Origin: Alphaproteobacteria bacterium
GTDB lineage: Bacteria > Pseudomonadota > Alphaproteobacteria > Sphingomonadales > Kordiimonadaceae
Assembly: GCA_021774735.1 (NCBI GenBank)
Contig: JAJFIS010000028.1
Span: 1-43,725 of the forward strand
Direction of reading: 5' to 3'
Length of the DNA stretch: 43,725 bases
Positions within the stretch are counted from its first letter, which is position 1, and each line of letters opens with the position of its first letter. The notes under the pieces were generated by a model. It saw only the letters and a list, made by a program, of their open reading frames with translations, ran no database searches and was not told where the DNA came from. The translations under genes and the position numbers were made by a program. Below are positions 26,039-43,725 of this stretch, in pieces.

Positions 26039-26041
26039 AAA

Positions 26042-26074
26042 AGCGAAATCCTATTCAATATTTTGTATCTGTTC
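26042..26074. repeat. Direct repeat A (gmk side), duplicate of the yicC 3' end
   Basis: These 33 bp match 28855-28887 at 30 positions; the three differences are all transitions. The last 20 bp (26055-26074) are identical. On the minus strand the segment still reads EQIQNIE-stop, the C-terminus of YicC, directly before the gmk ribosome site. It is the distal end of an islet that entered the 3' end of yicC, comparable to an att site. Confidence 0.8.
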
Positions 26075-26240
26075 ATGGGTTGAGATAATAGAAAATTTAA
26101 ACAACGACTTATAAAATAATTTCACCTTATTTCATGCTCCATATCACCACTTCTGTCACGCATTTTATGCAGGCTAACGAAATACTTTGAACAATTCGTA
26201 TTTATTCTCATCTACATCGTGATAGCCACTTATAGACAAA

Positions 26241-26282
26241 AAGTTAAGCCATATTGATTTTTAGAAGGGCTTAACTTATACT
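26241..26282 (+). promoter_or_regulatory. Promoter with 10-bp inverted repeat ahead of the 87-residue gene
   Basis: TTGATT (26254-26259) and TATACT (26277-26282) are 17 bp apart. The perfect inverted repeat AAGTTAAGCC (26241-26250) / GGCTTAACTT (26268-26277) embraces the -35 and reaches the -10, the layout of an operator that would block RNA polymerase. The start codon follows 30 bp later. The repressor would most simply be a product of this operon. Confidence 0.6.
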
Positions 26283-26312
26283 CTTAACTATGTTTAATAT
26301 TATGGCGATGAA

Positions 26313-26576
26313 ATGAAAAAGAACTTTGCGGCATTGTTAACAACAGTGAATGCACCCTACCTAGAACAGGTTGATGGTGCAATCCTTGCTGCTTGCCTGT
26401 CTGATATTAATCTTGCAAAGTCAAAACCTGGTCATATGTCATCGTTTTTTGGTGAAGTGCCTGCTCAATCCCAAAAGATGTTTGCTCTTCATAACGGTGT
26501 GCCTTTAATTAAACTAATAGCCATCGCTGCTGAGTTCGCCGATTATTCTGGTGAAGAATACCCTCTTTACATATGA
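26313..26576 (+). CDS. Unknown small protein, partner of the AbiEii-like gene (putative antitoxin)
   Basis: Family not recognised. The 87-residue protein has no signal peptide or clear membrane segment. It is of mixed charge with a hydrophobic patch near the end (VPLIKLIAIAAEFADYSGEE). Its stop overlaps the ATG of the nucleotidyltransferase gene (ATGA), so the two are translated together, and the order small-gene-first is that of antitoxin-toxin pairs. It is shorter than, and not visibly similar to, the AbiEi winged-helix antitoxin. The role is inferred from position only. Confidence 0.65.
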   Translation: MKKNFAALLTTVNAPYLEQVDGAILAACLSDINLAKSKPGHMSSFFGEVPAQSQKMFALHNGVPLIKLIAIAAEFADYSGEEYPLYI

Positions 26577-27247
26577 ACGCTCAAACGTCTCGCACTTCTG
26601 ATTGGCCTCGCCTTTTTTCTATAGCTTGTGACCTGATTGATCAGGTTAATGAAGATATGGAGATTATCACTGATTGGACTTTTGGTGGCGGTACAGCGAT
26701 GATGCTACAAATTGAACATCGCGAGAGCCATGATGTTGATATATTTCTATCTGACCCTCAGCACTTAAGCTTCCTAAATCCAGAAACTAGGGATTTCAGG
26801 TTTCAGGTTATGCCGAACGAATATGAAGGCGATGGCACACGGTTTAGAAAATTTGCATTTAAAAATATTGGTGAAATTGACTTTATTGTTGCAAGTCATT
26901 GTTCTAGAAATCCTACTTATAAAAAAGAAATTGAAGGCAGAATAGTTTGTCTGGAAACCATAGGCGAAATAATCTCAAAAAAAGTTTGTTATCGCGGGAC
27001 ACATATCAAGCCCCGCGATATATTTGATATTGCAGCAGCCTCCCAATCCCATGAACAAGAAGTTATAGATTCTCTTAGGCAAAACCCTGATGAGCTTCGC
27101 GCTACCATAAGCTACATGAAGAAATTAAAGCCTGAGTTTGTGACCGCGGCAATTAACGACTTAATGATACGGTCTCATTTTAAAGACTTGAGAAAACATG
27201 CTTATGTTGAATGTGGTCGGGTATTTACAGAGGCATCAAAGGAATGA
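26573..27247 (+). CDS. Nucleotidyltransferase, AbiEii/AbiGii toxin family
   Basis: Members of this family act as the toxin of abortive-infection and toxin-antitoxin systems; some transfer nucleotides to tRNA ends. The 224-residue protein has the nucleotidyltransferase core FGGGTAMML (Gly38-40, Thr41) followed by HRESHDVDIF (His49, Arg50, Ser52, Asp54, Asp56), and a third acidic position probably in GEIDFIV (Asp103). The later block IISKKVCYRGTHIKPRDIFDIAA (133-155) is the K..R...RD..D motif typical of AbiEii. All residues expected for activity seem present. The gene overlaps the 87-residue gene by 4 bp. Confidence 0.82.
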   Translation: MNAQTSRTSDWPRLFSIACDLIDQVNEDMEIITDWTFGGGTAMMLQIEHRESHDVDIFLSDPQHLSFLNPETRDFRFQVMPNEYEGDGTRFRKFAFKNIGEIDFIVASHCSRNPTYKKEIEGRIVCLETIGEIISKKVCYRGTHIKPRDIFDIAAASQSHEQEVIDSLRQNPDELRATISYMKKLKPEFVTAAINDLMIRSHFKDLRKHAYVECGRVFTEASKE

Positions 27248-27328
27248 AGCCGTAAAAGAGGCCTAATAAAATTACCTACAAACAACATGAACAAAAAAAC
27301 CATCAATTATTTAAAGCAGTAAGCTTAT

Positions 27329-27406
27329 GTGTAATAGTTCCGACCTTATCTGACAGTTACCGATTTTTCAGTTAGTGACTGTCAGATAAGGTCGGAACTA
27401 TTACAC
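27329..27406. mobile_element. 78-bp palindromic MITE-like remnant of an IS481-type element
   Basis: The perfect 29-bp inverted arms (27329-27357 and 27378-27406) flank a 20-bp centre. The first 57 bp (27329-27385) are identical to the IS481-type end at 43587-43643. The remaining 21 bp are the inverted terminus. The junction falls at ACTGTCAG, which occurs internally in the IS end and as part of the terminal repeat, so a full element could have collapsed by recombination between these short repeats. No target duplication is visible. The hairpin lies between convergent genes and supplies the stop codon of the DUF2971 gene. Confidence 0.8.
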
Positions 27407-28213
27407 TTTAAAACCCGTGAGTAATTTCAAACATTTCTTTTTCTTTTCAAAAGACGCTTCTGATAACCTTGGGTCGAGCATTAATTGGTCAACAAAATCA
27501 TGAGGGTCAACTGGGTATTTATACAATGCTTCAGTTGGCTTTTGTTGCTTTGACACACGGATCAACCGAACCTCTTCTTCATGCTTAAAGGCGCACCTTT
27601 TAACAAAAAGAGTCCTTACAGTATTTACTGTTGTTACTCCGGGAGTAAAGTTTACTATTTTTGCTTTGGAATCAAATACCGTATCGCCAAATTCAACTAA
27701 CTCTTTATCGCCAAAATATTGTACTCGACCAACAAAACCATACCCAATGGCATCCTCACCCAGATGCTCATGTAAACTTTTCAAAAGTTTACGGATTGTT
27801 GTTGTCACTTGTATGCCATTTTTTCCCTGTGAGTAAATACGCCACATTGCATCTGAATTTTTGTTCAGAGTCCAGCATTGCCCATAAAAGTCATCATGAA
27901 AATCGAAAACACCTTTTTCTCCAGATGACAATTGAACCTCAGATTTTAAAATGAAATTTTCAAAAGGGTCATCCCAGTCACTTGGCTTTCTGAGAACATT
28001 TTTTTTATCTTTAAATAGGTTCAGCAAATGTTCTTCCTGCATAATACTATAAATTGGCGTGTCTGGGGATAGACCATCTGCATTTAAAAAATTTCTCATA
28101 AATTTCCAATCATTCACCTTTTTGCTTTTGCGCCAATCAACACTAGTGCACCGAAAAGGTTTCACATAATATTTCCAAGTAATATATTGGCATAATTCAA
28201 TTGTTCCCACCAT
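27401..28213 (-). CDS. DUF2971 domain-containing protein
   Basis: Function unknown; DUF2971 genes are often found in accessory and defence regions. The 270-residue protein has the family features: an early SIMQEEHLLNLF segment, LRKPSDWDDPFENF (near residues 74-87), CWTLNKNSDAMWRIYSQGKNGIQV, and the late RTLFVKRCAFKHEEEVRLIR. The final codon and stop (GTG TAA) are made by the end of the 78-bp IS remnant, so the native C-terminus may have been a few residues longer. No strong ribosome site is visible before the ATG at 28211-28213; an inner ATG (MRNFLNADG) is an alternative. It diverges from parD. Confidence 0.8.
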   Translation of the reverse strand: MVGTIELCQYITWKYYVKPFRCTSVDWRKSKKVNDWKFMRNFLNADGLSPDTPIYSIMQEEHLLNLFKDKKNVLRKPSDWDDPFENFILKSEVQLSSGEKGVFDFHDDFYGQCWTLNKNSDAMWRIYSQGKNGIQVTTTIRKLLKSLHEHLGEDAIGYGFVGRVQYFGDKELVEFGDTVFDSKAKIVNFTPGVTTVNTVRTLFVKRCAFKHEEEVRLIRVSKQQKPTEALYKYPVDPHDFVDQLMLDPRLSEASFEKKKKCLKLLTGFKV

Positions 28214-28229
28214 ATTTTAATACTCATGC

Positions 28230-28265
28230 TTGTCTATTACCAATAGTTACTATATTATGGTAATA
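28230..28265 (+). promoter_or_regulatory. Promoter and operator-like palindrome of the parDE pair
   Basis: TTGTCT (28230-28235) and TATTAT (28253-28258) are 17 bp apart. The inverted repeat TATTACCA (28235-28242) / TGGTAATA (28258-28265) has its arms on the inner edges of the two hexamers. This is a plausible autoregulatory site for the ParD-like ribbon-helix-helix protein, 16 bp ahead of its start. Confidence 0.55.
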
Positions 28266-28280
28266 ACAGGAGATTATATG

Positions 28281-28517
28281 ATGGCAAAAACAACAAGTAT
28301 TGCTTTGGGTGAACATTTTAATGGCTTTGTCAGCGAACAACTGTCCTCTGGCCGCTATGGTTCTGCAAGCGAAGTAGTGCGGGCAGGTCTTCGTATTCTT
28401 GAAGAGAAAGAGACCAAACATCAAGCCCTGCAACAGGCCATTACGGTTGGCATGGAAAGCGGCGTTGCTGAGAATTTTAGCATGGGCTCTCTCCAAAAAG
28501 AACTGGACGCTGAATAG
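28281..28517 (+). CDS. ParD-like ribbon-helix-helix antitoxin
   Basis: The 78-residue protein reads [40 protein letters not shown], the standard ParD/CopG N-terminus for DNA binding and dimerisation, followed by an acidic C-terminal helix that would wrap the toxin. AGGAG lies upstream of two tandem ATGs (28278 and 28281); the second matches the family start. parE begins immediately after the stop (TAG-ATG). It probably represses the promoter at 28230-28258. Confidence 0.88.
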
Positions 28518-28787
28518 ATGGCCTCGCACCGCATTAGTAACGCGGCAAAGAATGATATTCGAAAAATAGCTATCTTTACTCAAATGCAATGGGGCAAAGA
28601 TAAACGCCGTCAATATCTCGCTGATATGGAGAGTAAATTTACTCTCCTCGCCGAAAATCCATTAATGGTACGCGAAGATGATAGTTTTTCACCACCTGCT
28701 AGACTGTGCCCCCACGCGCAGCATTTGATTGTCTATATAATAGATGGTTCTGGCATTTTCATTATCAGAGTTTTACATGCAGCATGA
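28518..28787 (+). CDS. ParE-like toxin (RelE/ParE superfamily), C-terminus possibly frameshifted
   Basis: ParE toxins inhibit DNA gyrase. The 89 residues follow the family from HRISNAAKNDIRKIAIFTQMQWG through FTLLAENPLMVRED to HLIVYIIDGSGIFIIRVLHAA. Family members usually continue after RVLH with about ten residues ending near R-M-D-x-x-x-H-[FL]. Here a stop follows VLHAA, but the next frame reads MQHEYF-stop directly behind, as if a few bases were lost. The toxin may therefore be weakened. Its ATG abuts the parD stop. Confidence 0.8.
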   Translation: MASHRISNAAKNDIRKIAIFTQMQWGKDKRRQYLADMESKFTLLAENPLMVREDDSFSPPARLCPHAQHLIVYIIDGSGIFIIRVLHAA

Positions 28788-28854
28788 ATATTTCTGAACA
28801 TTTATAATCTGAACTATTAACGATCCTACAAATAAAAATTCATAACTATCCTCT

Positions 28855-28887
28855 AGCAAAACCCTACTCAATATTTTGTATCTGTTC
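28855..28887. repeat. Direct repeat B (yicC side) of the islet
   Basis: This is the partner of 26042-26074 (30 of 33 bp identical, the core 20 bp at 28868-28887 exact). It forms the last seven codons and stop of the present yicC gene, differing from copy A by a synonymous GAG/GAA change in the final codon and by two changes downstream of the stop. Confidence 0.8.
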
Positions 28888-42345: not shown

Positions 42346-43611
42346 ATGGTCGGTTTAAAATCAGAATTCTTACAAACCCTCAGCGAACGCGGATTTATCC
42401 ACCAAGCAACAGACTTGGAAGGGCTGGATGAGCGCATGGCTGAGAGTGCCATTAAGGCCTATATTGGCTTTGACTGTACCGCGCCTTCGCTGCATGTGGG
42501 CTCGCTCGTGCAGATAATGATGCTGCGCTGGTTGCAGAAAACTGGTCATAAACCGATTGTTCTGCTGGGCGATGGCACAACCAAAATTGGCGACCCGACG
42601 GGCAAAGATGAAGCCAGAAAACTGCTCAGCGACGAAGATATTGAAACTAACTTAACTGGGATACGCTCTATTTTTGAACAATTCATCACCTTTGGGGATG
42701 GCACAACCGACGCCGAAATGGTGCGCAATCTAGACTGGTTAGGTGGTCTTGGCTATATTGAAATGCTGCGTGATGTGGGGCCTCATTTCACAATCAACCG
42801 CATGCTTACCTTTGAAAGTGTCAAGCTACGCTTGGACCGTGAGCAGCCATTAACCTTCCTAGAATTTAACTATATGATTATGCAGGCCTATGATTTTCTT
42901 GAGCTAGCGCGACGCGAAAATTGCCAGTTGCAGCTTGGTGGCTCTGATCAATGGGGCAATATAATCAATGGCATCGAGCTTGGCAGGCGGATGGAGGGTA
43001 AAACCCTATACGGCGTTACCTCACCGCTTATCACCACCGCTGACGGCAAGAAAATGGGCAAGTCAGAAAATGGTGCTATTTGGCTTAATGAAGACGCGCT
43101 AAGCGCATATGATTACTGGCAGTTTTGGCGCAATACACAGGACGCTGATGTGGGGCGGTTCTTACGGCTATTCACCGAATTGCCCTTGGATGAGATTGCG
43201 CGTCTTGAAGAGCTTGAAGGCCAAGAGATCAATGAAGCCAAGAAAATTTTAGCTGGTGAAGCAACCAGGATGTGCCGCGGCGAAGATGCCGCACTGCAGG
43301 CAGCTGCCACCGCCCAGAAAACATTTGAGCAAGGCGGCGTGGGCTCTGACCTACCCACCACCACAATTAATCATGACCGTTTAAAAGCTGGCATCAATGT
43401 GGTTGATTTGTTCTTAGAAGCCGGGCTCGGCAAATCAAAAGGGGAGCTTCGCCGCCTCGTCAAACAGGGCGGCGCCAAAATCAATGATGAAAAAGTTGAT
43501 AGTGAAGAGCTTTTGGTGAGTACGGACAATTTGAAAGAAGGCCTGATTAAACTATCCGCAGGCAAAAAGCGCCATGCGCTTATAAAGTGTAATAGTTCCG
43601 ACCTTATCTGA
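42346..43611 (+). CDS. tyrS: Tyrosyl-tRNA synthetase, last residues supplied by an IS element
   Basis: Class I synthetase that charges tRNA-Tyr. The 421-residue frame has the HIGH-type motif LHVGSL (His50), [13 protein letters not shown], the tyrosine-binding [13 protein letters not shown], the KMGKS motif at 236-240 and a C-terminal S4 domain ([22 protein letters not shown]). The chromosome-encoded part ends with GKKRHALIK at residue 414; residues 415-421 (CNSSDLI) and the stop at 43609-43611 come from the IS481-type terminus. Since homologues end within a few residues of this point, the enzyme should remain functional. Confidence 0.95.
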
Positions 43612-43725
43612 CAGTTACCGATTTTTCAGTTAGTGACTGTCAGTTTAAATCTGGTCTACAAATTTGTCTTTCCAGATTTGTTTCCCGTCAAGAAGCGTCT
43701 GCATAGGCGTTCTGCCTTGGCATCG
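43587..43725 (-). mobile_element. Terminus of an IS481-family-like element, cut by window edge
   Basis: The element begins with GTGTAATAGTTCCGACC at 43587, inside the end of tyrS, and continues beyond the window. A short inner inverted repeat (CTGACAGT / ACTGTCAG, 43608-43615 and 43636-43643) lies before the transposase stop. The first 57 bp are identical to the 78-bp remnant at 27329. The family call rests on the transposase C-terminus. Confidence 0.8.
43645..43725 (-). CDS. C-terminus of IS481-family-like transposase (partial)
   Basis: The minus strand encodes the last 26 residues RCQGRTPMQTLLDGKQIWKD...FVDQI and a stop at 43645-43647. The RTP-M-QTL-DG tail is characteristic of integrase-core transposases of the IS481 type. 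The DDE catalytic core lies outside the window. Confidence 0.7.
   Translation of the reverse strand, partial: RCQGRTPMQTLLDGKQIWKDKFVDQI

Follow-up and report, generated by a model that had tools for sequence, protein, structure and literature searches.

A perfect palindrome of two IS481-family left ends: a proposed deletion scar of an inverted pair of insertion sequences

Results

The insert between gmk and yicC

The DNA studied here, the window, is a whole stretch of 43,725 nucleotides that constitutes contig C21 of a genome assembled as 51 contigs (2.78 Mb). At 26039-28863, between gmk and yicC, it carries an insert of 2.8 kb, which holds an AbiEii-like nucleotidyltransferase gene on the forward strand (26573..27247; PF08843, E 4.6e-10) and, on the reverse strand, a DUF2971 gene (27401..28213; PF11185 at 24.4 bits against a cut-off of 22) that matches the PADLOC family PDC-S31 (E 5.9e-75) and is a candidate defence gene. 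In 10 of the 11 relatives examined (22 had a match) gmk lies directly after yicC, and in the eleventh (G007, locus L199) about 1.4 kb separates the two; this adjacency marks the insert as acquired DNA. A search with the DUF2971 protein across 59 genomes gave a match in one relative besides the genome itself, and found no relative with both window flanks or with the same insert.

Between the two genes of the insert lies a palindrome at 27329-27406, with perfect arms of 29 bp (27329-27357 and 27378-27406) around a loop of 20 bp. No other inverted repeat of the window combines perfect arms of 14 bp or more with a loop no longer than 60 bp, and the longest arm in each of three mononucleotide shuffles of the window was 10 bp. 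Folded as RNA it reaches -57.6 kcal/mol (z -13.7). Its first 57 bp (27329-27385) are identical to 43587-43643, the left end of an IS481-family element, and its last 21 bp are the terminus of that element, inverted. The two parts join at ACTGTCAG, an 8-bp repeat common to both left ends, which occurs on the forward strand at 27378-27385, recurs within the IS left end at 43636-43643 and is present inverted in its terminal repeat. The preliminary description of this DNA was accurate on the perfect arms, the 57-bp identity, the inverted terminus and the site of the switch; it had also given the unit as 78 bp, and here the inverted repeat stands and the size does not. Because a G is lacking at the outermost position in three of the genome's six IS left ends, the outer G/C pair is flanking DNA that pairs by chance, and the element proper, thus delimited, is 76 bp (27330-27405). 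Its left arm (27330..27357, forward) is the first 28 bp of the IS left end and is identical to 43588-43615; its right arm (27378..27405, reverse) matches the same left end in inverted orientation.

The parent element

The left end in the window, that is the 3' end of the transposase gene, occupies 43588..43725 on the forward strand and is cut off by the contig end. Six such ends are present in the genome, each at most 141 bp from a contig end, and counted from its second base the 57-bp segment of the palindrome is identical to all of them. The terminal fragments also bear pieces of the transposase, with its C-terminus in the contig ends that hold left ends, while contigs C26 and C27 end in its N-terminus. 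From these two contigs the right end could be read, as TGTATTAGTTCAGACATGATCTGACAG in C26 and as a variant form in C27. A full-length copy is not present in the assembly. Relatives carry complete elements with ends of this type, and the transposases of two of them (L031 and L033; 351 and 376 aa) score 285.7 and 290.9 bits with NF033577 transpos_IS481 against its cut-off of 224 bits, so that the initial assignment to the IS481 type holds. A relative's right-end pattern found no match in the genome itself, which has a differing right-end variant. A search for the exact 27-bp left repeat in the genome_contigs collection, from which this genome's own records may be missing, returned no match either.

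Several side observations concern these ends. The assembly has six left ends (C21, C24, C30, C31, C34 and C50) and only two right ends (C26 and C27), an imbalance that may reflect either missing contigs or copies stripped of their right ends. At 43588-43725 the left end has taken the place of a gene's 3' end and provides this gene, which by eye we take to encode a tyrosyl-tRNA synthetase, with a new stop codon; the PDC-S31 gene likewise has its stop codon inside the palindrome. The starts of contigs C7, C8, C10 and C11 (L043, L044, L046 and L047) have another repeat of about 140 bp in common, probably of a different IS. In the relative G004, several solo elements (L024-L027 and L029) resemble diverged left ends and have weak inverted arms.

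Both arms of the palindrome correspond to the left end

The left and right ends of the resident element differ at 4 of 27 positions for the right end in C26 and at 6 of 27 for that in C27. Compared with the left end, the inverted arm of the palindrome has no difference in 27 positions, and it departs at 4 positions from the right end in C26 and at 6 from that in C27. The comparison identifies the inverted arm as another left end. Had this IS lost an internal segment, the letters of the right end would have been kept, and a left end joined to the element's own right end is accordingly rejected for the window. The preliminary description had taken the inverted arm to be the far end of the same element and had proposed that this end should contain the terminal repeat: the motif CTGACAG is indeed present in the own right end (L051), and the end as a whole does not match the arm, a mismatch which that description had itself named as refuting it. 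Its view of the unit as MITE-like and open to mobilisation by the parent is likewise not supported, given that the palindrome is the only copy in the genome and lacks a 7-bp target duplication (GCTTATG on one side, CTTTAAA on the other). Collapse at a short repeat, as the kind of event it had invoked, is supported.

The same build in other bacteria

A pattern scan for IS ends, with search patterns that contained the left-end motif, yielded 84 stretches, which were scored by script. One is a perfect palindrome (L085), six are imperfect (18-23 of 27 positions), among them L132 (18 of 27), which by eye resembles a continuing IS, two are truncated, and 75 run on into an IS, a class that includes L089 and L102, solo-looking by eye. 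Even alone, the left end is quasi-palindromic, with 13-17 of 27 positions pairing in 75 of the 84 hits.

With loci that are identical between related records taken as one, and with that of the window included, we recovered seven independent perfect palindromes. The others are in a Thiothrix nivea MAG (L085), Arsenophonus nasoniae pArsFIN2 (L174), Klebsiella michiganensis p8BG (L176), Burkholderia glumae p79s2p (L184) and two IMG/VR contigs (L178 and L179). For four of the seven systems the parent IS is known at either end, namely those of the window, of Klebsiella (parent L180/L181, with left and right ends differing at 7 of 27 positions), of the ISVvu4 type (contig L178, parent the ISVvu4 copy L182; 6 of 27) and of B. 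glumae (parent L212; 5 of 27), the differences thus ranging from 4 to 7 of 27. Each of these palindromes consists of left end plus left end, and in the three systems other than the window's an exact search found no right arm of the parent in the palindrome. For L085, L174 and L179, perfect symmetry leads us to infer the same composition.

The pattern occurs in one of 385 genomes of the class, which is the genome studied here, and in none of a second sample of 369 genomes from another centre, so the palindrome is rare; in viral_contigs one search returned none and another two, which a third recovered again. The occurrence of the same build on the closed plasmids L174, L176 and L184 led us to reject an assembly artefact as its sole cause. 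Two further loci of other bacteria, L111 and L166, combine a left with a right arm, are imperfect and are bounded by 7-bp duplications (GTTGATG and GCTTATT); these are ordinary miniatures, and in them the model of the preliminary description is realised in other genomes.

Target sites and missing duplications

From 83 distinct left-end flanks, with the palindrome loci excluded and nine loci with solo or odd ends dropped before counting, we derived the target motif NNTNANN with its T-N-A centre, T being found at -5 in 74 of the 83 flanks and A at -3 in 73. The palindromes fit this motif at 12 of their 14 flanks, each within about the top 5% of the 7-mers of the window; the two flanks off the motif are the right ones of L174 and L179. 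In the window the left flank GCTTATG (27323..27329, forward) is in the top 0.3% of 7-mers, and the right flank CTTTAAA (27406..27412, reverse; TTTAAAG when read inward) is in the top 0.4%. These two putative insertion sites agree in 3 of 7 bases and are not copies of one another. A 7-bp direct repeat is missing from all seven palindromes, the agreement between flanks ranging from 0 to 5 of 7 bases (5 in L178, 4 in L184). Taken alone the absence of a duplication is a weak sign, because two of the six full-length IS copies tested also lack one and four have one, of 7 bp; most IS481 elements are described as generating 6-bp duplications in the available text of PMC10045372. Given flanks that fit the target on both sides and the absent duplication, each side looks as though it bounds a left-end insertion of its own.

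Relatives without the palindrome

With a 1,081-bp Klebsiella query spanning the palindrome, coverage of at least 80% was reached, among the matches listed, only by the plasmid's own record, and the 24 other matches listed, from 1,014 matching records, stop at the left edge of the palindrome. Beyond that position L188 has different DNA, and the right flank runs undisturbed in the two Klebsiella plasmids examined (L191 and L192). A. apicola (L189) has the Arsenophonus right flank intact. As a separate observation, the Arsenophonus plasmid paPv1 (L190, about 2638-2650) has the left flank of the palindrome followed by 12 left-end bases and then unrelated DNA, which makes it another end of this IS at a junction. 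A search of 5,426 E. coli genomes with the flanks of L179 found none that covered 80% of the query.

The B. glumae system is the only one with both flanks on one molecule. Its right flank is undisturbed in the BGR1 and R2 plasmids, and the related B. glumae plasmids CP033670 and CP100135 hold both flanks in the same orientation (243-254 bp matched on the left, 975 bp on the right), uninterrupted and 2,008 and 1,999 bp apart, with two genes in the interval and no IS481 left end in either record. On these alignments the B. glumae palindrome stands in place of about 2.0 kb of uninterrupted DNA of its relatives. As in the Klebsiella relatives, and for the right flank in Arsenophonus, the flanks are not adjacent there. 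The BGR1 plasmid bglu_1p also carries, at 107348-109909, an inverted pair with left ends outward, formed by a truncated and a full copy with 804-bp arms of 99% identity.

Discussion

A proposed deletion between two inverted copies

We propose, with a probability of roughly 60%, that the palindrome is the deletion scar of two inverted IS481-family copies whose left ends faced outward. The starting state would be [L..R]-X-[R..L], each copy at its own target site. The internal CTGTCAG of one left end would then form a direct repeat with the inverted CTGACAG in the left terminal repeat of the other copy, which is why such a pair can collapse and yield precisely the observed palindrome. By slippage or annealing at these repeats, aided by pairing of the two inverted copies, both IS bodies would be lost along with the DNA between them, and the product would be 57 bp of one left end followed by the last 20 bp or so of the other, a perfect double-left hairpin devoid of a target duplication. 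The observed junction falls on a short direct repeat shared by the two inverted outer ends, ACTGTCAG for the resident IS (8 bp), and the corresponding repeats measure 9 bp in the Klebsiella and ISVvu4 types and 11 bp in B. glumae. In B. glumae the flanks come from two sites of one molecule; in the window they are different target 7-mers. At the window's own locus, where the state before the collapse was not seen, the event is presumed by analogy. The acquired insert fits a junction of two foreign pieces, which falls short of proving a deletion there. The molecular route would be replication slippage or annealing at a break.

The model of the preliminary description, in which a single IS collapsed from its internal CTGTCAG to its own right end, would additionally need its arms equalised by hairpin repair or gene conversion and its duplication decayed, two extra events in every case. 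In its favour, L111 and L166 document left-plus-right collapse at the same junction, with imperfect arms and 7-bp duplications, and the own right end L051 has CTGACAG too. It has to contend with seven perfect double-left units of which none has a 7-bp duplication, with Klebsiella and ISVvu4 right ends that lack the repeat (they read CTGACAC), and with the 2 kb of host DNA that is also gone in B. glumae, and we regard it as quite improbable. Fold-back copying of one left end, a quasi-palindrome template switch, could also yield a double-left mini-element, which then moved or, through transposase, caused an adjacent deletion. The left end is already a quasi-palindrome, both flanks fit the transposase target, and IS150 adjacent deletions that lack target duplications are reported in the available part of PMC11708052; yet neither an IS whose left end had been perfected, nor a mobile double-left unit bearing a 7-bp duplication, nor any other intermediate was seen, and a separate deletion is needed in every tested case. 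This route is improbable in our estimation.

That the hairpin is maintained by selection, as a bidirectional terminator or a structure stabilising mRNA, is suggested by its position between two convergent genes and by its very stable fold. A role is not an origin, however, neither arm is followed by a run of T, and the other palindromes sit in unrelated contexts, all of which makes this a very doubtful account. Capture of IS ends at a double-strand break during rearrangement has been proposed for IS5 and IS481 moves that leave no duplication, and the available text of PMC11708052 reports duplication-free events, one of them with an IS481-family element in P. fluorescens; but capture leaves unexplained both the target motif on the flanks (12 of 14) and the fixed CTGTCAG junction, and of the alternatives it strikes us as the most far-fetched.

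The best reading of the double-left palindromes is thus as recurrent deletion scars of IS481-family elements, through a variant of a known deletion process. In the general form, for which we would offer even odds, the left ends of IS481-family elements have built into them a direct repeat of their inverted terminus, and any left-outward inverted pair would therefore be primed to delete itself and the intervening DNA, leaving a perfect double-left palindrome of 75-77 bp as a fossil of the deletion, readable in any genome with the family. If right, this provides a short, searchable DNA signature of past deletions between two inverted IS copies, which would tell which IS end faced outward and where each copy had been inserted. 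It would also separate miniatures (left plus right, with a duplication) from look-alike scars (left plus left, with none), and would account for the way one IS family remodels plasmids and, in this genome, an insert with two putative defence genes. In the available text of the literature searched we found no description of double-left IS481 palindromes.

Comparison with known systems

The palindrome is IS481-derived, in that its terminal sequence is identical to an IS481-family end. Its parent resembles the IS481-family elements ISSod13 and ISVvu4 in the terminal repeat TGTA...ATCTGACAG, the transposase type and the T-N-A target centre, and a 7-bp duplication is present at ISSod13 (L177) and at an ISVvu4 copy (L182); unlike these elements, the palindrome has neither a transposase nor a right end. 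With IS-derived MITEs, such as MITECca01 of Cardinium, which according to the available part of PMC9769881 derives from an IS982 element, it has in common short length, inverted repeats, absence of genes and origin from an IS. It differs from them in being single-copy, in having two left ends and no duplication, and in showing no sign of spread. We reject it as a mobile IS481 MITE, since both arms are left ends, there is no target duplication and only one copy exists.

The closest process known from an assay is nearly precise excision, a RecA-independent deletion linked to replication. For a Tn10-related transposon it has been ascribed to slippage of replication at short direct repeats (d'Alencon et al., cited in the available text of PMC12524634). 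The likeness lies in inverted IS copies that favour deletion between short direct repeats close to their outer ends. In contrast to Tn10, the copies here would be two independently inserted IS481-family elements, with loss of the intervening host DNA, and the evidence consists of natural scars rather than an assay. Deletions adjacent to an IS that lack a target duplication, as reported in the portion of PMC11708052 available, are similar in having IS sequence at the deletion junction and no duplication; there the whole IS stays in place, whereas here only two ends are left.
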